In this document: positions 28,116 through 58,327 of the stretch, piece after piece
Layout of the letters: each line of letters opens with the position of its first letter
How positions within the stretch are numbered: position 1 is the first letter of the stretch
Assembly: GCA_013314735.1 (NCBI GenBank)
Contig: JABUFD010000006.1
Coordinates: 1-64,000 of the forward strand
DNA length: 64,000 nt
Direction: 5' to 3'
DNA from: Anaerolineae bacterium
GTDB lineage: Bacteria > Chloroflexota > Anaerolineae > Anaerolineales > Anaerolineaceae
The notes under the pieces: generated by a model
What the model was told of the DNA's origin: nothing
Database searches by the model: none
What the model saw: the letters and a program-made list of their open reading frames with translations, nothing else
Position numbers and translations under genes: made by a program

Positions 28116-28450
28116 GTTCAGGAGTGTAACATCCGCCATTCCCAACGTTAACCACCGCGGCGCGCCTTTGGCGTTCCGGCCATTCATTTCACACATACTC
28201 TCGCCATCCCATCCCGGAGGGAGGCAGTTGGGTCACGAGCGCAAGCGGCGTCAGGTCCTCCCTCCGGGATGGAGCCCTCCCTTCGGGATGGAAGTTCGGG
28301 AGTGTAGCATTTGCCATTGCCAACCTTCACTGCCGTGGCCTGACTTTTACGTTCCGGCCATTCATTTCACACGTATTCTCGCCATCCCATCCCTTCGGGA
28401 TGGAGGTTCGGGAGTGTAACGCCAGCACATGCCAGCATTAACCACCGCGG
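28116..28450. repeat. Intergenic repeat array (GTTCGGGAGTGTAAC family)
   Basis: Repeated blocks: GTTCRGGAGTGTARC at 28116, 28294 and 28406; TTCCGGCCATTCATTTCACAC at 28174 and 28352; CGCCATCCCATCCC at 28202 and 28380, the last with self-complementary CCCTTCGGG. CCACCGCGG occurs at both ends. An inverted relative lies at 33.6-33.8 kb. No gene is seen in 27995-28572. Confidence 0.65.
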
Positions 28451-28480
28451 TTAAGCCGGTCCCCTGCATATGGTAGAAAT

Positions 28481-28546
28481 CATGAATCGAACCGCCAAAT
28501 TGTTGGCGGTTCGATGGTCTTTCAGAACACTTTTGGGACAGTCCCT
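28481..28546. repeat. MITE-like element remnant, copy 2
   Basis: Hairpin A (ATCGAACCGCC...GGCGGTTCGAT) and one terminal repeat, ACTTTTGGGACAGTCCC, remain. Hairpin B and the left end are missing. Confidence 0.55.
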
Positions 28547-28572
28547 TTGTTGTTGGTTCGATTTCGTGTGTG

Positions 28573-33599: not shown

Positions 33600-33830
33600 G
33601 TGTAAGTTTGAATCGCATGTGTGGAACATCACCAATACGCCGCGGTTGTTAACGCTGGCATTGTGAATGTTACACTCCTGAGCCTCCATCCCGGAGGCAG
33701 GTAACGAGGTCACGAACACAAGTGGCGTCAGTCCCTGCCTCCGGGATGGGATGGCTGGGGTAATTTTGAAATGGGAGTGTGGAACATCAGCCCCGCGGCA
33801 GTCAGTAACTCCGCCGCGGGGCATGGATTA
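33600..33830. repeat. Intergenic repeat, inverted relative of the 28 kb array
   Basis: Contains TGTTACACTCCTGAGCC, CATCCCGGAGGCAGG, GGTCACGAACACAAGTGGCG and CCTGCCTCCGGGATGG, which mirror the 28.1-28.45 kb blocks. CCTGCCTCCGGGATG is the complement of CATCCCGGAGGCAGG, so the unit can fold into a long hairpin. No gene lies between 33587 and 33832. Confidence 0.6.
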
Positions 33831-33832
33831 TC

Positions 33833-36800
33833 TTAAGGGGCTGGTGTGCTGATCTCGATCAGCGAGTAGGCGGTCCAGCGGCCGAAGTTGCGGCCGTTCT
33901 TGGCGCGCACATGCCACTGGTACTCGCCGATCGCCAGCTCGGGGTCGACCGCCCAGGTGCAGGTGCCGCCGCTGCAGAACAGCGCATCGGACACCAGGGT
34001 GTTTTGCACCAGGTTGCCGGACAAATCGCGGATCTGCAGCAGGTACATGGTGGCGCCGGTGATATCGCCCCATTGCAGTGTGGGTGAGAGATCAAACGTC
34101 ACGCTGCCGGAAGGCGGGGAAATGATCCATGTGCGTTCCAGCTGGGTGTAGGTCAGGGTGCGCAGGGCAGACCAATCACTCTGCACCCCGCCCAGGCGGG
34201 AACGTACCTGCCAATCATAACTGCCGAAGTTGCTTTCGAGGTCAAACGGCAGGCGGTAGGAACACAGCGTGTCATCGCAGCTGCCGCCGGTGATCACCGA
34301 AAACAGCAGGCTGTCATCCAGGCCGTACACTGCCAGCTCGTAGCTGCCGGCATCCTGCACCTTGTACCATTTGAAGGTCGGGCGTCCGCCGTAGATGATC
34401 CCATCCACACCGGGGCTGCGCAGGGCGGGGGTGCCCAGCACGGTGAAGCGCCGCTCCGTGCTCCACTCGCTGATATTGCCGTCCAGGCTGCCGCGCACAC
34501 GCCACAACATGCCGCGGTAGGGCAGGCCGCTCAGCGTCAGCGAACACCCATCCACCCCGCACGATGCGGCCGGGAGGCGTTCTTCAACCAGGATGGAATA
34601 ATCGAGGCCGCGCACCTGCAGCAGGTAATTGTCCGCCGGTTCGCCGGGCTGCCAGGTGAAGGTGACTTCGTCAAGGGTTGTGACAAAATTATTGGCGGGC
34701 ACGGTTGAGGCCGGGGCAGGCACCTGAATATAGGTGAAACCGCGCCACCCCGACCACGGGCTGACGGTGCCGCCGCGCACCGCGCGCATCTGCCACTGGT
34801 AAGCGCCGTATTGCTGCGGCAGGCTTTCCGCCAGCTGGTGGGCGCAGTCTGGCGCGCACGCCAGGCCATTGAGCAGGATCAGGCTGAGATCGGGGGCCTG
34901 CAATTGCAGGTCGTAGCTTTCAGCGTTGGGCAGGCTCTCCCAGGTGAAGGCCGGGCGGTCGATATAAAACGCATCCGCCGCGGCAGGGGTCAGCAGTACG
35001 GGGCCTTCTGCCCACTGGGTGAAGCCCCACCACGGGCTCCAGTACCCCCAGTTGGCGCCGTTGAAGCCGCGCACATGCCAGGTGTATTCGCCGGTGGCCA
35101 GGGCATCGGGAATCTGGAAGGTGCAGGTGCCGTCTGTGCAGGCATCATAGGGGGAATACCCCTGAAACACCAGGACGTTCAGGCTGTCGCGCACCTGCAG
35201 CAGGTAGCGCAGGGCGCCGTCACTCTCGCTCCACTGGAAGGTGGGACGGGGATTGCCGGCGGCGCCGCTCTCGGCCGGGGCCAACATCAGCGGGGCGGCA
35301 ATGCGGGTGTAGGTGAAGGTTTGCCATGGGCTGAATGCGCTGCCCTGCACGGCATCCTCACCCTTGATGTGCCACTGGTAAGCGCCGTAATTGGCAGCCA
35401 GGTCGGTGGGCAGGGTGTACTGGCACAACGCGCCGCCACAGACCTCCGTGCCGTCGAAAACGGTATCTACAATCAGGCTGCCGCCGGGATCTTTCACCTG
35501 GAGGTGAAAATCGACCATCCAGCCGGCGGGTTCCCACTGGAAGGTGGGGGTGCCGTCATACAACACCGCATCTACGGCCGGGGCGATCGGCGTGGGCGGG
35601 GTGAGGCCAAAGTTGGCGGTGAGGGCGCGGTCACTGGTGAGGGTGATGGTGTAGGGGTTCTGGTCCGAGAGAATCACGCTGTCTTCCTCCCAGCTGGCCA
35701 GGCTGTACCCGGTATCCCCCACGCCGGTCAGCAGCACCTCGGTGCCGTGGGCAAAGCCGTCCGGGTCGCCTTCCCAGGTGAGGGCGCAGTTGTAGCCGGG
35801 GCTGACGCTCCCCACGGTGGTGGTCACACTGCCGTTATCAGCGTAAATATCCAGCTCGTAACAGCGCACCAGGAAACTGGCTGTCAGCACACGGTCCTGC
35901 GTGACCGTGACAGTGTAGGGGTTCTCCTGGCTGAGGAGGGTATCATCCTCCAGCCAGCCCCAGAAATCGTAGCCGCTGTCAGCGGCGGCGGTGAGTTCCA
36001 CGCTGGTATTGTAGGTATAGCCGTCCGGGTCGCCTACTCCATCGAGGGCACAATTGTAGGCGGTGCCGCGGGTGACCTGTCCATTGGTATCGGTGATCTC
36101 GAGTTCGTAGCAGTCCTGCGAGAAATAGGCGCTGACGGCGCGGTCACTTTGCATGGTGATGGTGTAGGGGTTGTCGGTCGATAGCACCGCATCATCTTCC
36201 GACCAATCTCCGAAGCTGTAGCCGGCATCGGGTGTGCCCTGCAGCATTACCTGGGTGCCGTACAGGTAGCCGTCATTGTCCCCACCGCTGGTTGCGCAGT
36301 TGAAGCCAGGTTCGAACCCCGCCACAGATTGCGCCACCGTGCCGTGGTCGGTGTAGATGGTGAGGGTGTAACAATCCTGGCTGATATTGGCTGTGAGGGC
36401 ACGGTCGGCGGTGATGGATATGGTGTAGGGATTCTCGGTGGAAAGGGAGGTGCTGTTTTCCTCCCAATCCTCGAAGCTGTACCCGGCATCGGGGAGGGCG
36501 GTCAGTTCAATACTGGTGTTGTAGGCATAGCCGTCATTTTCACCGCCGCTGGTGGAGCAATTATAGGCGGGATCACGCTCCACGCTTCCATTGGCCACAA
36601 AGATACTGAGGGTAAAGCAATCCTGCGAGAAGTTGGCAGTAAGGGCGCGGTCTGCATCCATCGTGATGGTATAGGGATTGGCCGCGGAGAGCGAAGCGCT
36701 GTCCTCTTCCCAGTCGACGAAACTGTAACCCGCGTCCGGCACGGCGGTCAGTTCCACCTCGGTGCCGTCGTAGTAGCCGTTGTTTTCGACCCCGCTGGCG

Positions 36801-38014
36801 ATGCAGTTGTAAGCCGGGTCGCGTTCCACACTGCCGTTGTCGGCATACAGGGTGAGGGTGTGGCAGGCATCCTCCGTAAAATTGGCAGTGATGTAACGGT
36901 TGGCGTCCATCGTGACCGTGTAGGGATTGGCGGCGGAGAGCGAGGCACTGTCCTCCTCCCAGTCCGCAAAGGTGTAGTGGGCATCCGCTGTTGCGGTCAG
37001 CTCCACCTCGGTGCCGTCGTAGTAGCCGTTGTTTGTTTCCCCACTGGTGGCACAGTTGTAGGCCGGGTCGCGCTCCACGCTGCCGTTGTCGGCATACAGG
37101 GTGAGGGTGTAGCAGGAATCCTCCGCGAAATTGGCAGTGATGTAACGGTTGGCGTCCATCGTGACCGTGTAGGGGTTGGCGGCGGAGAGTGAAGCACTGT
37201 CCTCCTCCCAGTCGACAAAACCGTAGTTGGTGTCCGGCACGGCGGTCAGCTCCACCTCGGTGCCGTTGTAGTAGCCGTTATTTGTTTCACCGCTGGTGGC
37301 ACAGTTGTAGGCCGGGTCACGGTCAACGCTGCCGTTGTCGGCATACAGGGTGAGGGTGTGGCAGGCTTTCTCCGTGAAATTGGCAGTGATGGCCCGGTCG
37401 GCGTCCATCGTGATCGTGTAGGGATTATCCGTGGATAGCGAACTGTCATCCTCCTCCCAATCGACAAAATCGTAATTGGCGTCCGGTACGGCGGTCAGTT
37501 CCACCTCGGTGCCGTCGTAGTAGCCGTTGAGTTCGATTCCGCTGGCGATGCAGTTGTAGGCCGGGTCGCGCTCCACGCTGCCGTTGACTGCGGTGAGATC
37601 CAGCGTGCGGCAGGCAAGGGGTGCAAACACCGCGGTCAGGGCGTAATCGCGGTCAGCCACGGTGAATGACAGGGATGATTGAAATGGGTTGGCCCATAGA
37701 ATCGGCAATCCCCCCTCCTGCCAGGAACCAAAGCCGTAGCCTCCAGCCGGTGTTGCTGTGAGGGTCAGGTATGTGCCTTCCAGGTAGCCGTCAAAGGCCG
37801 GGCCGTAAACCATGCAGTTGGGGGGTTGGTTGACCTGGATGATACCGCTCAGCGCGGGATCAACAAAGGTTTCCACCAGCCAGCAATCACCGGGTCCCAG
37901 CGGCGGCACGGGCGGTTCGCCGGCTGGAATGCGGCTGGCAGCGGCAGTGCCATATACCAGGCCAATGGACAGGAATACCAGTAAAAATGCAGCAGGGATC
38001 CATTTCTTCAACAT
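33833..38014 (-). CDS. Giant secreted protein: nine InlB-type B-repeats and six Fn3-like modules
   Basis: 1393 residues, opening with a signal peptide (MLKKWIPAAFLLVFLSIGLV, cleavage near TAAAS). From about 44 to 800 there are nine B-repeats of 82-93 residues. Each has Y-DGTEVELTAVPDA-Y-F-DWEED, NPYTITMDADRA-TANF and paired cysteines. The first is divergent, and repeats 2-5 are nearly identical. From about 800 to the end come six ~97-residue Fn3-like modules with P-F-W, LLQVRD, a C-x(3-6)-C pair and Y-WHVR. There is no sortase signal or C-terminal TM. AGGAGG sits eight bases before the ATG. It heads a four-gene family and probably mediates surface binding. Confidence 0.8.
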   Translation of the reverse strand: MLKKWIPAAFLLVFLSIGLVYGTAAASRIPAGEPPVPPLGPGDCWLVETFVDPALSGIIQVNQPPNCMVYGPAFDGYLEGTYLTLTATPAGGYGFGSWQEGGLPILWANPFQSSLSFTVADRDYALTAVFAPLACRTLDLTAVNGSVERDPAYNCIASGIELNGYYDGTEVELTAVPDANYDFVDWEEDDSSLSTDNPYTITMDADRAITANFTEKACHTLTLYADNGSVDRDPAYNCATSGETNNGYYNGTEVELTAVPDTNYGFVDWEEDSASLSAANPYTVTMDANRYITANFAEDSCYTLTLYADNGSVERDPAYNCATSGETNNGYYDGTEVELTATADAHYTFADWEEDSASLSAANPYTVTMDANRYITANFTEDACHTLTLYADNGSVERDPAYNCIASGVENNGYYDGTEVELTAVPDAGYSFVDWEEDSASLSAANPYTITMDADRALTANFSQDCFTLSIFVANGSVERDPAYNCSTSGGENDGYAYNTSIELTALPDAGYSFEDWEENSTSLSTENPYTISITADRALTANISQDCYTLTIYTDHGTVAQSVAGFEPGFNCATSGGDNDGYLYGTQVMLQGTPDAGYSFGDWSEDDAVLSTDNPYTITMQSDRAVSAYFSQDCYELEITDTNGQVTRGTAYNCALDGVGDPDGYTYNTSVELTAAADSGYDFWGWLEDDTLLSQENPYTVTVTQDRVLTASFLVRCYELDIYADNGSVTTTVGSVSPGYNCALTWEGDPDGFAHGTEVLLTGVGDTGYSLASWEEDSVILSDQNPYTITLTSDRALTANFGLTPPTPIAPAVDAVLYDGTPTFQWEPAGWMVDFHLQVKDPGGSLIVDTVFDGTEVCGGALCQYTLPTDLAANYGAYQWHIKGEDAVQGSAFSPWQTFTYTRIAAPLMLAPAESGAAGNPRPTFQWSESDGALRYLLQVRDSLNVLVFQGYSPYDACTDGTCTFQIPDALATGEYTWHVRGFNGANWGYWSPWWGFTQWAEGPVLLTPAAADAFYIDRPAFTWESLPNAESYDLQLQAPDLSLILLNGLACAPDCAHQLAESLPQQYGAYQWQMRAVRGGTVSPWSGWRGFTYIQVPAPASTVPANNFVTTLDEVTFTWQPGEPADNYLLQVRGLDYSILVEERLPAASCGVDGCSLTLSGLPYRGMLWRVRGSLDGNISEWSTERRFTVLGTPALRSPGVDGIIYGGRPTFKWYKVQDAGSYELAVYGLDDSLLFSVITGGSCDDTLCSYRLPFDLESNFGSYDWQVRSRLGGVQSDWSALRTLTYTQLERTWIISPPSGSVTFDLSPTLQWGDITGATMYLLQIRDLSGNLVQNTLVSDALFCSGGTCTWAVDPELAIGEYQWHVRAKNGRNFGRWTAYSLIEISTPAP

Positions 38015-38219
38015 CGATCGTTCCTCCTGAGACCCATTATGGTGCCATCTATCGTATATCATTGGTATCCCCGGCAGCACGAGAAGTGCTGATCATCCTG
38101 CCAACAGGTCTGTCTGCCCGGGATTCTATGTTCGATTGTAGCACAATGTGCGGTGTGGAGGAATAAAGTGGAAGGGCGGTTCGGTGTGTCTCCTGCGGGT
38201 GTTTTACAACGGGAAGGCC

Positions 38220-39221
38220 TTACTTGTCGGTGGTGAAGCTCCACCATGCGGACCAGTAGCCAAAGTTGCGCCCATTCTTGCCGCGCACATGCCAGCTGTA
38301 GGTGCCGGTGTCCGGCAGGGCTTCCGTGGTCTGGGTTTCGCAGGTCAGGCTGGTGCAGGCGGCTGCCGCGCTGACCACTTCTTCGATCACCACCGTACCG
38401 CTGGTGTTGCGGATTTGCAGCTGGTATTCCTCTGCCCCATCCACCACGCTCCAACCGAACATCGGCCGGTCGGTGAAAAGGCCGCCCTGACCGTTGGCGG
38501 GCGTGTTTTGCAGTACAGCTGCAATGCGGGTGTAAATAAAATTGCGCCAGGTTGTCCAGGTGGAATAGAAACCGCCGTTTTTGGCCTGCACCTGCCAGCT
38601 ATACAGGCCGTAATCTGTGCCGAGGTCAAACGGCAGCGGGAATTCACACAACCCGCCGGGGGTTTTGCACACCGCGCACGGCAGCAGTTCATCCACCAGC
38701 AGGATGCCCAGCGCGTCTTTTACGCGCACCCGGTATTCGATGGCGTAATCGACCGGGGACCATTGCAGGATGGGGGTGCTCTGAAAGACTGCCGCGTTGG
38801 CACCGGGCGATTGCAGCGATGGTGTTTGCAGGCTGACCGTGCCGATGGTCAGGTTCCACCACACGGACCAGGCGCCTTTTTCGCTGTCGGTGCGGCTGAG
38901 GACATGCCATTTGTAGTCATCGTGGCTGAGCGTGACCGGTGATGGAATGGTGCATTCCACCGCGTTGCAGCGTGCTGCGGCACTGTAGGTGTTTTTCACG
39001 ATGACGGCATTGGTGTAGCGGTCCTTGATCTCGAAGGTATACTTGGTGGCGCCCGTTACCGGCTGCCACTGAAAGGTCGGGGTGGTATCCGCCGTGATCA
39101 GGTTGCGCTGGGGAACCAGCAACAGGGGAGCATCCAGCGCAGCCGGTGCGTCAAATCCGGTCAACAGCAACGCAACAACCAGCGCCGCAAGCAACAGCCA
39201 GGGGTACAATTTGTATCTCAT
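38220..39221 (-). CDS. Secreted protein with three Fn3-like modules
   Basis: 333 residues. A signal peptide or anchor (LYPWLLLAALVVALLLTGF) is followed by three Fn3-like modules. The first carries TPTFQWQPVTGATKYTFEIKD, ARCNAVECTIPSP and YKWHVL. The second carries LLPCAVCKTPGGLCEF, with extra cysteines. The third ends in WHVRGKNGRNFGYWSAWWSF. The N-terminal module matches those of the next two genes, and the last resembles the final modules of the 1393- and 568-residue proteins. GGAGGG precedes ATG 39221. No catalytic motif is seen. Confidence 0.75.
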   Translation of the reverse strand: MRYKLYPWLLLAALVVALLLTGFDAPAALDAPLLLVPQRNLITADTTPTFQWQPVTGATKYTFEIKDRYTNAVIVKNTYSAAARCNAVECTIPSPVTLSHDDYKWHVLSRTDSEKGAWSVWWNLTIGTVSLQTPSLQSPGANAAVFQSTPILQWSPVDYAIEYRVRVKDALGILLVDELLPCAVCKTPGGLCEFPLPFDLGTDYGLYSWQVQAKNGGFYSTWTTWRNFIYTRIAAVLQNTPANGQGGLFTDRPMFGWSVVDGAEEYQLQIRNTSGTVVIEEVVSAAAACTSLTCETQTTEALPDTGTYSWHVRGKNGRNFGYWSAWWSFTTDK

Positions 39222-39403
39222 ACAGTCCCTCCCAGGGTGAACAGGTGAAATCCAGCATACAAGGGAATGGGGGTGCGGTGAGTCCGGCTGCCATGCGGGC
39301 TGAATTGCGCGCGGGAGCAATGGCTGGATATTTCTATTATAGTACCACCGGCGGAATTTGAGTGCATCAAACACGCAGCCTGCCGTTGTGAATATTCATC
39401 AAA

Positions 39404-39431
39404 ACAGGGTCAACCGAACGGCTGACCCTGT
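39404..39431 (-). terminator. Terminator after the 568-residue secreted protein
   Basis: ACAGGGTCA (39404-39412) pairs with TGACCCTGT (39423-39431). On the minus strand TTTTG follows. Confidence 0.6.
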
Positions 39432-39454
39432 AGTTGTTGTTGTATGCCCCGGGT

Positions 39455-41161
39455 TTATTCGCCCGGCAGGAAGAGTTCCATGCTGGCCGGGAGGGCGGCT
39501 TCCTTGCCCGTGACGGCGGTGAGTGTGTTCACCTGCCCGGCGGCGGGCATGAATTGCGGCAGGGCTGCCGAAGCGCTGCTATAATCGGCATCATATACCT
39601 GCACCCAATCCACCTCAACGATGTGGCTGGTATCTTCATACGAGATCACATCCACCGCGAACAGGCCGCTGCTGTAGGCCGGATCAAGGTTTGTGACGGT
39701 TCCGACCGCTACACTGCTCGTGGCACCCTGCGCAGTGAAGCGCATGCTCATCGTGCTGCCGTTGACATTGATTGAGTAGATGTTATAAGCAGAAATATTC
39801 CCGGCAATGGTAACCTCATCCTCCCCCGGAATGGTCTGCCACCCCAGGGTGGGACTATATTTCCAGAAGCGGAAGGTGATGGTATTCTGCGCGAAGGAAA
39901 CCACATCCACGGTATACGCCTGTACCAGGTTGCCGCTGCCGTCAAATTGGGCACGGTAATACAGGCTGAAGCCGGTGCCGGGCTGGGCGCCGCTGGTGCG
40001 CATGAACGTGTTCATCATGCCATCGGTAAATACCAGGTTCAGGTAAGTGGTGGCGCAGGAATAATCACAGGTGCCGTGGGTGCCGGTGTAAATGCCATTG
40101 ATCACGGACCAGGTATTGTCCGGGTCGATCCAATCGGAGGTTTCGCTGCCAAAGCCGTAGAAGTAATCGGCGGGTTCGATGATCAGGTCGCGGTAGGCTG
40201 TCCAGCGCCCGAAGTTGCGCCCGTTTTTGGCGCGCACATGCCAGATATAACTGTCATCTGCCAGGCCGGGATCGATCTCCCAGCCGCAGGTGCTGCCGTC
40301 GCAAAAATCCGCGTCACTCACCAGATGTTGGATGATGAGCGCGTCGGTGCTGGCGCGGCGTACCTGCACCAGGTACATGGTGGCGCCGGTGATATCACCC
40401 CATTCCACCAGGGGGGAACCGTCCTGGGTGGAATATCCATCCGAGGGGCTGATCAGCCAGGTGCGTGCCAGCTGGGTGTAGGTGAAGGTACGGGTAACAC
40501 TCCAATCGCTGAGAGCGGCGCCATCGAGCGCCTGCACGCGCCACTGGTAATCACCGTAGTTGCTGGCAAGGTCATACGGAATACGGAAGCACCAGTACGG
40601 GGCACAATCAGTGCCGGTGGTGTTCCAGGTATCGAGCACGGTGCCGGAGCCGTTCATCATTTGCACATTGTAACGGGTGGCATTTTCCACCGGGTACCAT
40701 TTAAAGGTGGGCCGTCCGCCGTAGACGATGGCGTTCGCGCCTGGTGAGCGCAGGATGGGGGTATCGAGGCTGAAATCCGCCACGGTGAAGGTGCTGTAGG
40801 TGCTCCATGTTCCCATGATGGCACCGTTATACGCCACCACGTGCCATTTGTAGGCGTCGGGATCGAGGGTGAGGGGGGACGGGATGGTGCAGGTGGAGGC
40901 ATCACAGCGCGCGGCGGCATCGTAGGTGTTCTTGGCAACCACGCTGTTATCAGAAACCTTTTTCAGTTCGAAGGTATAACTGTCAGCGCCGGACGCCACC
41001 TGCCAGGTGAAATCGGGGGTGGTATCGCCGGTGGTTGATCCGTGGGCCGGGCTCAGCAGCACAGGAATGCCGACCACGTCGGCAAAAACCGTACCGGAAA
41101 CGGCCACGGCAGCCAATACGACTGACGCCAAAACGAGAATGAATAATTTTTTGGTGTTCAT
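39455..41161 (-). CDS. Secreted protein: three Fn3-like modules plus a LamG/concanavalin-like C-terminal domain
   Basis: 568 residues with a signal peptide (LFILVLASVVLAAVAVSGTVFA). Three Fn3-like modules run to about residue 350. Module 1 has DFTWQVASGADSYTFELKK and ARCDASTCTIPSP. Module 3 has WGDITGATMYLVQVR and WHVRAKNGRNFGRWTAY, the latter shared almost exactly with the giant protein. The last ~200 residues (FGSETSDWIDPDNTW..., VVSFAQNTITFRFWKYS, VEVDWVQVYD) look like a beta-sandwich laminin-G/glycan-binding fold. AAAGGA precedes the ATG at 41161; the frame extends upstream without support. Confidence 0.75.
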   Translation of the reverse strand: MNTKKLFILVLASVVLAAVAVSGTVFADVVGIPVLLSPAHGSTTGDTTPDFTWQVASGADSYTFELKKVSDNSVVAKNTYDAAARCDASTCTIPSPLTLDPDAYKWHVVAYNGAIMGTWSTYSTFTVADFSLDTPILRSPGANAIVYGGRPTFKWYPVENATRYNVQMMNGSGTVLDTWNTTGTDCAPYWCFRIPYDLASNYGDYQWRVQALDGAALSDWSVTRTFTYTQLARTWLISPSDGYSTQDGSPLVEWGDITGATMYLVQVRRASTDALIIQHLVSDADFCDGSTCGWEIDPGLADDSYIWHVRAKNGRNFGRWTAYRDLIIEPADYFYGFGSETSDWIDPDNTWSVINGIYTGTHGTCDYSCATTYLNLVFTDGMMNTFMRTSGAQPGTGFSLYYRAQFDGSGNLVQAYTVDVVSFAQNTITFRFWKYSPTLGWQTIPGEDEVTIAGNISAYNIYSINVNGSTMSMRFTAQGATSSVAVGTVTNLDPAYSSGLFAVDVISYEDTSHIVEVDWVQVYDADYSSASAALPQFMPAAGQVNTLTAVTGKEAALPASMELFLPGE

Positions 41162-41370
41162 CTGGTTGTCCTTTACCGAGTGTGAATGCTGCCGCAGCAA
41201 GGAGGAAGTCTGTGTTGGTTGGATGGAATAACTGTCAAAGAAGGATGCGCTGATGGGCAAATTCACCATTTTGTCCGGCTCCATCATAACATGAAACCCG
41301 GCGGAAAATTGCCGTGCTGAATATTCTGTTAGTCACCTTGCAAGATTGAAATGCGCCTGTTGCGGGGTGT

Positions 41371-41778
41371 TTACTGGATGGTCAGGGTGCGGTACTCACT
41401 CCACGCGGTTTGCAGTTCGCCAATCCAGGCTACCACATGCCATTTGTACTCACCGGGCGCCAGTTCCTGGGGGGCGGGGATTTTACAGGCACTCTCATCG
41501 CAGCGTGCTTCCGCGTTATAGGTTTTCTTGGCAATCACGCTGTTATCGGCGGTGCTTTTAATTTCAAACGTGTATTTGGTGGCGCCGACCACGGCAGACC
41601 ACTGGAACTGGGGATCTGTTTTGCCGGTGGTTTTGTCGTCTTCCGGCACCAACAGGATCGGCGCTGGCAGGTCCAAACCTTGCGGGGCTGCCTTCTCGGG
41701 TTTTGCACCGCAGGCAGTGAGCAGCATGGCGCTGAGGAGGACCAACAGGGCTACCATCACAATCGTTTTCTTTTTCAT
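41371..41778 (-). CDS. Lipoprotein with a single Fn3-like module
   Basis: 135 residues. Lipobox LTAC (C23) follows a classical signal; then a short linker and one module: DPQFQWSAVVGATKYTFEIKS, ARCDESACKIPAP and YKWHVVAW. It is the minimal member of the family in this region and is nearly identical in pattern to module 1 of the two preceding secreted proteins, so it could be the membrane-anchored partner or the ancestral unit. AAGGAG precedes the ATG; a TATAAT is 35 bases upstream. Confidence 0.82.
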   Translation of the reverse strand: MKKKTIVMVALLVLLSAMLLTACGAKPEKAAPQGLDLPAPILLVPEDDKTTGKTDPQFQWSAVVGATKYTFEIKSTADNSVIAKKTYNAEARCDESACKIPAPQELAPGEYKWHVVAWIGELQTAWSEYRTLTIQ

Positions 41779-41952: not shown

Positions 41953-42023
41953 CAGAAGTACAATGCCAATATATGTTGAATGATTTGAAAACGAAAACGA
42001 AAATGTTCAAAAGGAGCAAACCA

Positions 42024-42590
42024 ATGACCGAAGAAATTCAAATTCCAGCGGAAAATCTCGAAGAGGAAGGCGCGGAAACCCATGAAGAGATCGAATGGGA
42101 AATGGAAGAAGCTGAACTCAACGAAGGCATGGCGCAAAGCGTGATTGCCAAGCATGTTACCATCAATGCCGGGGGCGCGCAGCATATCGAAGCCGAGACC
42201 GTCGATATCCAGCAGGGGGCGGCCGCCCAGGTGGAAGCGGAAACTGTTACCGTTTCCAACGGTGCGATCGGCGTGGTGAAGGCGCAGACCGTCACCCTGA
42301 TGCAGGGCGCGGTGGGCGTGATCGGCGCGGAAATTGTCAGCGCGGATGCGGTGCAAAGCCTGGTGCTGGGCACCGGTGACCTGAAGATGAATGGCGACAT
42401 CCGTGCCGGTATCATGGGCGTGGGCGATGTGGAAGCCGATTCGGTTTCCGCCTTTTTCCTGGCTGCCGGTGATGTGCATGCCGAAGAAGTGAAATCCGTG
42501 TTCACCCCCATCACCGCCGCGGCGGCGGGAGCGGCCGGCGGACTGGTGTTCGCCCTGCTGTCACTCCTGTTCCGCAAACACCGAAAATAA
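42024..42590 (+). CDS. Beta-solenoid-like protein with a C-terminal membrane helix
   Basis: 188 residues. An acidic N-terminus (about 1-35) is followed by a string of short repeats of the form A-x-T-V-x-(I/L)-x-Q/N-G-A (HIEAETVDIQQGAAAQVE, AETVTVSNGAIGVVK, AQTVTLMQGAVGVIG). This periodicity is typical of a right-handed beta-helix, as in bactofilins or hexapeptide proteins. The end has a TM helix (ITAAAAGAAGGLVFALLSLLF) and basic RKHRK, giving a tail-anchored protein with a cytoplasmic solenoid or the reverse. AAGGAG precedes the ATG. No named family is recognised. Confidence 0.65.
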   Translation: MTEEIQIPAENLEEEGAETHEEIEWEMEEAELNEGMAQSVIAKHVTINAGGAQHIEAETVDIQQGAAAQVEAETVTVSNGAIGVVKAQTVTLMQGAVGVIGAEIVSADAVQSLVLGTGDLKMNGDIRAGIMGVGDVEADSVSAFFLAAGDVHAEEVKSVFTPITAAAAGAAGGLVFALLSLLFRKHRK

Positions 42591-42787: not shown

Positions 42788-42793
42788 TACAAT
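42788..42793 (+). promoter_or_regulatory. -10 box seven bases before the L,D-transpeptidase ATG
   Basis: TACAAT ending seven bases upstream of ATG 42801, with no Shine-Dalgarno, so the message is probably leaderless. Confidence 0.5.
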
Positions 42794-42800
42794 GGTGCCT

Positions 42801-43949
42801 ATGAAAGTACGCGCATTGTTCTGGCTGTGTTTGAGTTTCCTGGCCGGGTTGGGGTTCCTGTTTGCGGCGCCGCAAACTGTTTCGGCGGCGGATGACCCCA
42901 TCCTGCCGATCTGCCTGCCGGATGCCTACCTGTACGACCCGCAGGACTGCCTGCCGCTGGGACCATCGCAGACACTGACCGAACTGGCGCAGGATGGGAT
43001 CCGCCTGCCGGAGCCGCCCCTGCCGATGCACCGCACACCGTACGCGTACAGTTACGTTGATTACCAGTACATCAAGGTCACCACCGAAGGGGCGATCAAT
43101 GTGTATGATTCCCTGGCGGGGGCGGTGGCGGATTCCCCGCTGCGCAGCATGCCGGGTGGGTTCCGCTACTTTTCCTACTCGCAGCGCCAGGAACCGCCTG
43201 AAGGCATCTATTACCAGGTGAAGACCACCGAATGGGTGTGGGGCGGGGATGTTTCCCGCGTGAGTGCCCCCAATTACCAGGGTCTGGTATTTGACCGCAC
43301 CCCGCTGCTCGATTTTGCTTTTATCATCGAAACCCAGACCGACGGCTATAGCGCCCCCGGTTACAATCAACCGCTGAGCGGGAATGTCTTCCGCCGCTTC
43401 GACCTGGCGTATGTCTACGAGGAAACCACCCTGGCGGATGGCATCTGGTACCGGGTGGGGGTCAATGACTGGCTGCCCAAGCGGGTAATCGCCGTGGCGC
43501 ATGTCAATCCCGTTCCGCCCGAAGGCGTGGACAACGGGCGCTGGGTGGAGATTGACCTGTTCCAGCAGGTGCTGATGGTGTATGAGAACCAGCAACTGGT
43601 GTTTGCCACCCTGGTATCCACCGGTGTGGCGCCGTTTTACACCCAGCCCGGGCTGTTCCAGATCTATGAGCGCAAGCAAACCGAGGATATGACCACCAGC
43701 GACCCGAGCGACTTTTACTATCTCGAAGATGTGCCCTGGACGCAGTATTTTGACCAGGCGCGCGCGCTGCACGGCATCTACTGGCACCCGTGGCTGGGGT
43801 ACAACAACTCGCACGGCTGTGTCAACCTCTCGATTGCGGACGCGCGCTGGCTGTGGGAATGGGCCGACAATGGCGATTGGGTGTACGTGTGGGATCCCTC
43901 CGGCGAAACCCCCACCGACCCATCGCTGTACTCCGCCGGTGGTCCCTGA
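42801..43949 (+). CDS. L,D-transpeptidase (YkuD family)
   Basis: 382 residues, exported (LFWLCLSFLAGLGFLFAAP signal, cleavage near VSA). The catalytic domain is at the end: HGIYWHPWLGYNNSHGCVNLS, with nucleophile C340 and its histidine H338. The substrate-side motif IDLFQQVLMVYENQQLVFATLVSTG precedes it. The N-terminal two-thirds has repeated SH3-like or WGG-rich segments (TEWVWGGDVSRV, NDWLPKRVI). It makes 3-3 crosslinks in peptidoglycan or attaches proteins to it. The stop codon falls in the first unit of a 24-bp tandem repeat, so the last residues (SAGGP) are repeat-encoded. Confidence 0.88.
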   Translation: MKVRALFWLCLSFLAGLGFLFAAPQTVSAADDPILPICLPDAYLYDPQDCLPLGPSQTLTELAQDGIRLPEPPLPMHRTPYAYSYVDYQYIKVTTEGAINVYDSLAGAVADSPLRSMPGGFRYFSYSQRQEPPEGIYYQVKTTEWVWGGDVSRVSAPNYQGLVFDRTPLLDFAFIIETQTDGYSAPGYNQPLSGNVFRRFDLAYVYEETTLADGIWYRVGVNDWLPKRVIAVAHVNPVPPEGVDNGRWVEIDLFQQVLMVYENQQLVFATLVSTGVAPFYTQPGLFQIYERKQTEDMTTSDPSDFYYLEDVPWTQYFDQARALHGIYWHPWLGYNNSHGCVNLSIADARWLWEWADNGDWVYVWDPSGETPTDPSLYSAGGP

Positions 43950-58200: not shown

Positions 58201-58327
58201 GAAGGGGCTGTCCCAAAAGTCCAGTGCGGCTGAGCCGCGCACCTACATCTGGGCTTAAATTAAGAATCGAACCGCCAGATCTGGCGGTTCGATGGTTTTA
58301 CAGGTGACTTTTGGGACAGCCTCTTCC
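58201..58327. repeat. MITE-like element, most complete copy
   Basis: Terminal repeats of 21 bp (58201-58221 and 58307-58327) match at 20 positions around the core GGCTGTCCCAAAAGTC. Inside are hairpin B (GCGGCTGAGCCGC) and hairpin A (ATCGAACCGCC...GGCGGTTCGAT), in reverse order to copy 1. About 127 bp, non-coding. Confidence 0.75.

Follow-up and report, generated by a model that had tools for sequence, protein, structure and literature searches.

An exchangeable C-terminal tail of three Fn3 modules on varied exported proteins of an Anaerolineaceae bacterium: a candidate surface-retention element

Introduction

In SLH triplets, three small modules follow one another at one terminus of exported proteins whose cargo varies, and bacterial secreted proteins often contain Fn3 modules as accessory domains or spacers. 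The T9SS C-terminal domain of Bacteroidota (Por_Secre_tail) is a beta-sandwich carried by otherwise unrelated exported proteins. GlyGly-CTERM/rhombosortase systems serve about a dozen secreted proteins per genome, including extracellular nuclease, M6 peptidase, and serine proteases, that are usually homologous only in the C-terminal region (PMC3237569). GlyGly-CTERM, PEP-CTERM, LPXTG, and MYXO-CTERM signals are each built from a short motif, a transmembrane helix, and a basic end. In Chloroflexota, the identity of the outer layers is unclear, the envelope being layered without a recognised outer membrane (PMC13319060).

Here, we analyze a C-terminal tail of three modules (M1-M2-M3, M3 being the last) found in an Anaerolineaceae bacterium. 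It resembles the T9SS domain as a C-terminal beta-sandwich element on otherwise unrelated exported proteins, the SLH triplet as three small modules in a row on varied cargo, and, in fold and tandem arrangement, the Fn3 arrays (PF00041 and relatives) seen in proteins that bacteria secrete; its cargo types overlap with those of GlyGly-CTERM. Unlike the T9SS domain, it comprises three Fn3 domains, each module having its own Cys pair, and occurs in a genome without Omp85 or T9SS tail-domain matches. In contrast to CTERM and LPXTG signals, it has no C-terminal helix and spans ~300 aa of folded modules. It differs from SLH triplets in fold, in a genome without an SLH match, and from PF00041 arrays in scoring below the Pfam fn3 domain cut-off and in its position-typed modules, conserved Cys pair, and M3 FG loop. 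For Anaerolineales and Chloroflexi, the literature searched contained no paper on tails of the Fn3 or sorting kind, although such work may exist elsewhere.

Results and Discussion

The window is the whole stretch of DNA analyzed, 64,000 nucleotides of contig JABUFD010000006.1, from a 4.09 Mb genome in 13 contigs that is 95.5% complete. The original prediction described four adjacent minus-strand genes encoding exported proteins with 6, 3, 3, and 1 copies of a cysteine-paired, Fn3-like module, read as a local surface system. We seeded a module HMM with the single module of the lipoprotein and iterated it over ORFs of the window, other loci of the same genome, and a same-genus genome, where it converged on 64 modules in 21 ORFs (two genomes of the genus). 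The predicted counts were recovered in ORFs 33833-38080, 38220-39374, 39455-41287, and 41371-41778, all minus, with domain E-values of 1e-17 to 5e-33; no match at E<0.01 was obtained in 420 shuffled copies of the module proteins. The Cys pair is likewise present, in 60-61 of the 64 modules across both genomes. Signal peptides are clear in the cluster products, and the 135-aa product has a lipobox. The features of the cluster are as follows, with modules assigned by the module HMM and position profiles.

33833..38080, minus: gene 1, 1415-aa exported protein, nine InlB-type repeats then six modules, the last ending 7 aa before the stop; likely start ~38014
35609..37789, minus: gene 1, nine divergent InlB B-repeats (PF18998; nine Pfam matches, E 5.5e-96)
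35312..35596, minus: gene 1 module 1, M2-like
35018..35293, minus: gene 1 module 2, M3-like; inner, partial copy of the tail order
34733..35002, minus: gene 1 module 3, M2-like
34442..34714, minus: gene 1 module 4, weakly M1
34151..34429, minus: gene 1 module 5, M2 of the terminal tail
33857..34129, minus: gene 1 module 6, M3 of the terminal tail, contains WHVRAKNGRNFGRWTAY
38220..39374, minus: gene 2, 384-aa ORF, signal peptide and M1-M2-M3 only, a tail without cargo; likely start ~39221
38847..39128, minus: gene 2 M1
38535..38822, minus: gene 2 M2
38232..38513, minus: gene 2 M3
39455..41287, minus: gene 3, 610-aa ORF, signal peptide, M1-M2-M3, C-terminal lectin/LamG-like domain; likely start ~41161
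40784..41065, minus: gene 3 M1; Fn3 fold in model
40481..40759, minus: gene 3 M2; also from structure model
40184..40459, minus: gene 3 M3; also from structure model
39578..40183, minus: gene 3 ConA/LamG-like domain (Pfam of relatives; structure model weak)
41371..41778, minus: gene 4, 135-aa lipoprotein, lipobox LTAC, one M1 module
41380..41661, minus: gene 4 M1 module

Two details of the prediction did not hold. Module 1, described as nearly the same in three products, is only 50-54% identical among them, and the final module, assigned to two products, belongs to a single type shared by all three multi-module products (63% identity between two, 41% for the 38220 product). A divergently oriented gene next to that of the lipoprotein (41973-42590) encodes a 205-aa protein that is rich in short degenerate repeats, has a hydrophobic C-terminal stretch, and lacks a significant match in Pfam.

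We then compared modules by their position in the protein. Clustering places the third-last, second-last, and last modules largely in three groups. With leave-one-out profiles trained without the tested protein and its closest kin, all 18 last modules were called M3, all 18 second-last modules M2, and all 15 third-last modules M1 (51/51 calls in total). In 12 of the 18 proteins, only 2-7 residues separate the end of M3 from the stop, and in the other six a lectin-like domain follows it. The lone module of the lipoprotein is typed M1 in both genomes of the genus.

The three modules of gene 3 were confidently modeled as seven-stranded Fn3 sandwiches (pLDDT ~75-96), and among solved structures the three-module model is closest to Fn3 triplets, fibronectin included (Foldseek E 6.6e-12 to FnIII 10-12; Z 13.3 to fibronectin FnIII 12-14). 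None of the four window proteins gave a Pfam fn3 (PF00041) match, and other tail proteins score 16-18 bits against a cut-off of 25. One protein (L059) has a 33.7-bit fn3 match, in which no stretch passes alone and the best part lies outside the modules. A PDB sequence search returned nothing significant, and NCBIfam yielded no tail model, giving for the tail only matches far below cut-off (LIC11435 family). The modules thus have an Fn3 fold, yet form their own position-typed subfamily rather than a set of unrelated generic Fn3 domains, the outcome that had been named as fatal to the prediction.

Within M3, conservation peaks in strand F and the FG loop, with a mean pairwise identity of 0.70 each compared to 0.46 for M3 as a whole. 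The loop is near-invariant (NGRNFGRW); the corresponding values for the FG loop are 0.33 in M1 and 0.31 in M2. In the tenth Fn3 domain of fibronectin the FG loop carries the RGD ligand site, a parallel only and not evidence. Part of this conservation could stem from recent gene conversion rather than ligand binding.

These data bear on a reading in which the modules are ordinary Fn3 spacers or accessory domains, alike through duplication and gene conversion only, and have no common partner. The plain Fn3 fold, the arrays of varying length in relatives, and the evident gene conversion agree with it, and the general role of Fn3 modules as spacers counts against retention. Nevertheless, we regard it as fairly unlikely: module order is fixed in all 51 calls, as is the end position, the M3 FG loop is among the best conserved parts although dispensable for a spacer, and the bare exported tail of gene 2 has no cargo to space.

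Four further tail proteins of the genome share the lectin-like domain of gene 3, which is also present in the same-genus MAG. The LamG-like domain of the original prediction is real in kind, since relatives pass PF06439; matches in the genome itself are sub-threshold. A model built from three sequences resembles ConA-like lectins and CBM66 at low confidence (core pLDDT only ~70). Because this model is weak, the assignment to the ConA/LamG kind rests mainly on the Pfam matches of relatives.

A genome search with the lipoprotein detected the module on contigs C4, C5, C6, C8, C9, and C10. The M2-M3 profile retrieves 14 genes at E<=8e-73, three of them in the window, and the remaining 11 lie on C5, C6, C8, C9, and C10. 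Eleven of the 14 tail proteins have N-terminal cargo, two have only a lectin-like domain behind the tail, and one is bare. By Pfam and NCBIfam, the enzymatic cargo consists of two subtilases, one M12B-like metalloprotease, and one M6-like metalloprotease; the others are two DUF285 proteins, a PD40 propeller protein with a second one resembling it, one FG-GAP and one lamin-tail-domain protein, and the product of gene 1 with its InlB repeats. In the same-genus MAG SpSt-1165, the proteins with tails include an ExeM/NucH nuclease besides M6, subtilase, and lamin-tail proteins. All 14 tail proteins have Sec or lipoprotein signal peptides, and one full-tail protein (L065) is a lipoprotein. The tail is optional, as only two of the six subtilases of the genome have it. 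Outside tails, a module-like domain occurs within a protein with many hydrophobic, membrane-type stretches (L066:2937-5810).

With the same tail encoded by another 11 genes outside this contig, a four-gene system is too narrow a reading; the cluster is a local concentration within a genome-wide, dispersed family. That the genes form a self-contained surface system, with the lipoprotein anchoring the three other products, is very unlikely. They are adjacent, on one strand, and share module types, and the lipoprotein module is kept in the same-genus genome at 52% identity. Most tail genes nevertheless lie elsewhere, the gaps from stop to likely start among the four genes are 205-233 nt, and in the same-genus genome (69% complete, short contigs) the lipoprotein gene sits among other neighbors, so that cluster conservation fails in part. 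By eye, no neighbor gene is common to the tail genes that could represent dedicated machinery, a YkuD lead aside. A YkuD L,D-transpeptidase gene (window 42792-43949) adjoins the cluster, and a homologue in the same-genus MAG (L070:4907-6115, 65% identical) lies ~2 kb from a different tail gene. This proximity could be chance or a link to wall attachment.

We next compared tails with the bodies that carry them. The two subtilases have bodies 63% alike and tails 46% alike, and the tail of subtilase B is 69% like that of an M6 protease in the other genome. The two DUF285 proteins are 57% alike in body and 61% in tail; DUF285a and the M6 protein have unrelated bodies and tails 82% alike, and the tail of DUF285b is 95% like that of a neighboring propeller-like protein. 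An M2-M3 tree joins the DUF285a tail with the M6 protease tail (support 98/95) and the DUF285b tail with that of its neighbor (100/100). Relatedness among tails therefore follows gene location or other cargo rather than homology of the cargo. At the DNA level, DUF285b and its neighbor share 600 bp at 91.7% identity, from the M1/M2 border to the stop, and no other likeness in their coding regions at the search threshold. This likeness is due to cassette exchange or gene conversion with its border at the domain junction. M1-M2-M3 is thus an exchangeable C-terminal tail of three disulphide-type Fn3 modules that passes between genes as a cassette. The duplication and shuffling of homologous modules proposed originally is borne out, with an exchangeable, surface-type part on exported products with different partners.

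Two kinds of repeat occur near tail genes. The first is a MITE-like element of 116-120 bp with inverted ends GAGGCTGTCCCAAAAGTC...GACTTTTGGGACAGCCCC, two inner hairpins, and a strong fold (z -5.3). It has 14 near-full copies in the genome; five of them are found 9-132 bp past the stop of a tail gene, where a uniform model would predict 0.01. The second is a 159-bp tandem repeat with 72 matches in many scattered arrays; it flanks three tail genes and has many copies elsewhere.

164-283, 28440-28547, and 58204-58323: MITE-like element copies, window
L059:4689-4808, L063:5248-5367, L063:7116-7235, L064:8177-8296, and L067:5927-6046: MITE-like element copies, other loci
28116-28450 and 33686-33773: 159-bp tandem repeat arrays, window
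L060:6306-7101, L061:2842-3479, L061:4168-4671, and L067:2670-3266: 159-bp tandem repeat arrays, other loci

Such repeats may aid recombination in tail exchange, or may have travelled with it.

Among the 147 genomes of the family searched, the M2-M3 tail proper occurs in two genomes of one genus only, with profile E-values of <=8e-73 for full tails in the genus and 1.7e-28 for the best match outside it. Single-protein searches of named genomes gave no matches, and the M2-M3 alignment matched MAG SpSt-1165 only. Relatives in other genera and in another family of the order (G039) have diverged module arrays, of varying length, that end within 10 residues of the stop in 19/26 ORFs; several of the remaining ORFs have a domain matching PF06439 after the last module. 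The Cys pair is a lineage trait, being frequent in G016, G026, G033, and G094 and rare or absent in G005, G007, G012, G021, and G039.

A G039 locus (L118:2942-14000) parallels the window cluster, with four adjacent genes of two to three related modules each. Three of these end in three-module tails that are 58-69% alike on bodies without detectable likeness, and the fourth has two such modules near its N terminus. In G143 (L100 and L101, C1:1426000-1462000), three very large proteins have 8-module C-terminal tails, with the last two modules 81-89% alike and bodies 42-59% alike.

Finally, we searched for known anchoring and sorting systems. The genome contains no SLH match (controls positive in four), no Omp85 match at 95.5% completeness (controls positive in seven), and no Por_Secre_tail match (control positive only in Bacteroides, below cut-off); Por_Secre_tail was also absent from the Pfam and NCBIfam scans. 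No tail protein has the C-terminal transmembrane helix of LPXTG/CTERM signals (best C-terminal 19-mer hydropathy <=1.54), and the single LPxTG string, found in gene 2, falls within M3 and is not followed by a helix. We therefore reject membership of the tail in the T9SS CTD, SLH, or CTERM/LPXTG classes. Two sortase-family matches in the genome mean that another anchor route may operate.

We also considered that the tail is a secretion signal that is recognized and cleaved. A C-terminal beta-sandwich on unrelated cargo is what the T9SS offers as precedent (PMC4804311). With no Omp85 or Por_Secre_tail match in the genome, a phylum described as lacking BAM (PMC13319060), and a tail of three domains that a lectin-like domain sometimes follows, this is extremely improbable.

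Many unrelated exported proteins of this genome, among at least 14 that carry the tail, are homologous only in the C-terminal region, as is characteristic of sorting or retention tails. Given a tail without membrane helix or LPXTG signal and a genome without matches to SLH, Omp85, or the T9SS tail domain, non-covalent, receptor-bound retention appears to fit best. On balance, we consider it probable that M1-M2-M3 is a surface-retention tail that functions like SLH triplets or GlyGly-CTERM tags while belonging to neither, the retention function and receptor being what we infer. Tail proteins would exit by the Sec route and then fold, and the tail, chiefly M2-M3 with the M3 FG loop, would bind one common component of the outer cell layer, for example a glycan or a protein of the coat. 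This binding would keep the proteases and nuclease, as well as propellers and adhesin-like repeats, on display at the surface. M1 may serve as a more variable spacer, the lectin-like domain may add a second contact in some proteins, and the lipoprotein would keep a lone M1 at the membrane. A binding place is plausible, as Chloroflexota, described without an outer membrane, can have a protein layer of unknown composition.

The serious rivals to retention are plain accessory-domain duplication and outward-facing adhesion, in which the tail, as an adhesive or substrate-binding unit, would direct secreted enzymes to particles, biofilm matrix, or other cells instead of the surface of the producing cell. 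InlB, DUF285, and FG-GAP repeats are frequent in adhesins, which, with the degradative cargos and the glycan binding suggested by the lectin-like domain, speaks for adhesion. We judge it unlikely all the same, as one tail occurs on cargos with different substrates (DNA, protein), and L065, with its full tail, and the M1 protein are lipoproteins and so already on their own membrane.

Conclusions

The M1-M2-M3 tail is a clear example of folded domains whose evolution is decoupled from that of their cargo. More tentatively, it may belong to a Chloroflexota surface-sorting system in which a triple Fn3 tail, read by a dedicated putative envelope receptor, decides which exported proteins stay, with related genera using their own diverged tails and cassettes recombining between genes, possibly aided by neighboring intergenic repeats. 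For Chloroflexota, with their layered envelope and no recognised outer membrane (PMC13319060), the common tail would offer a handle on how proteins are kept at the surface, one that predicts part of the surface proteome of the genus from sequence and provides a bait for the receptor.
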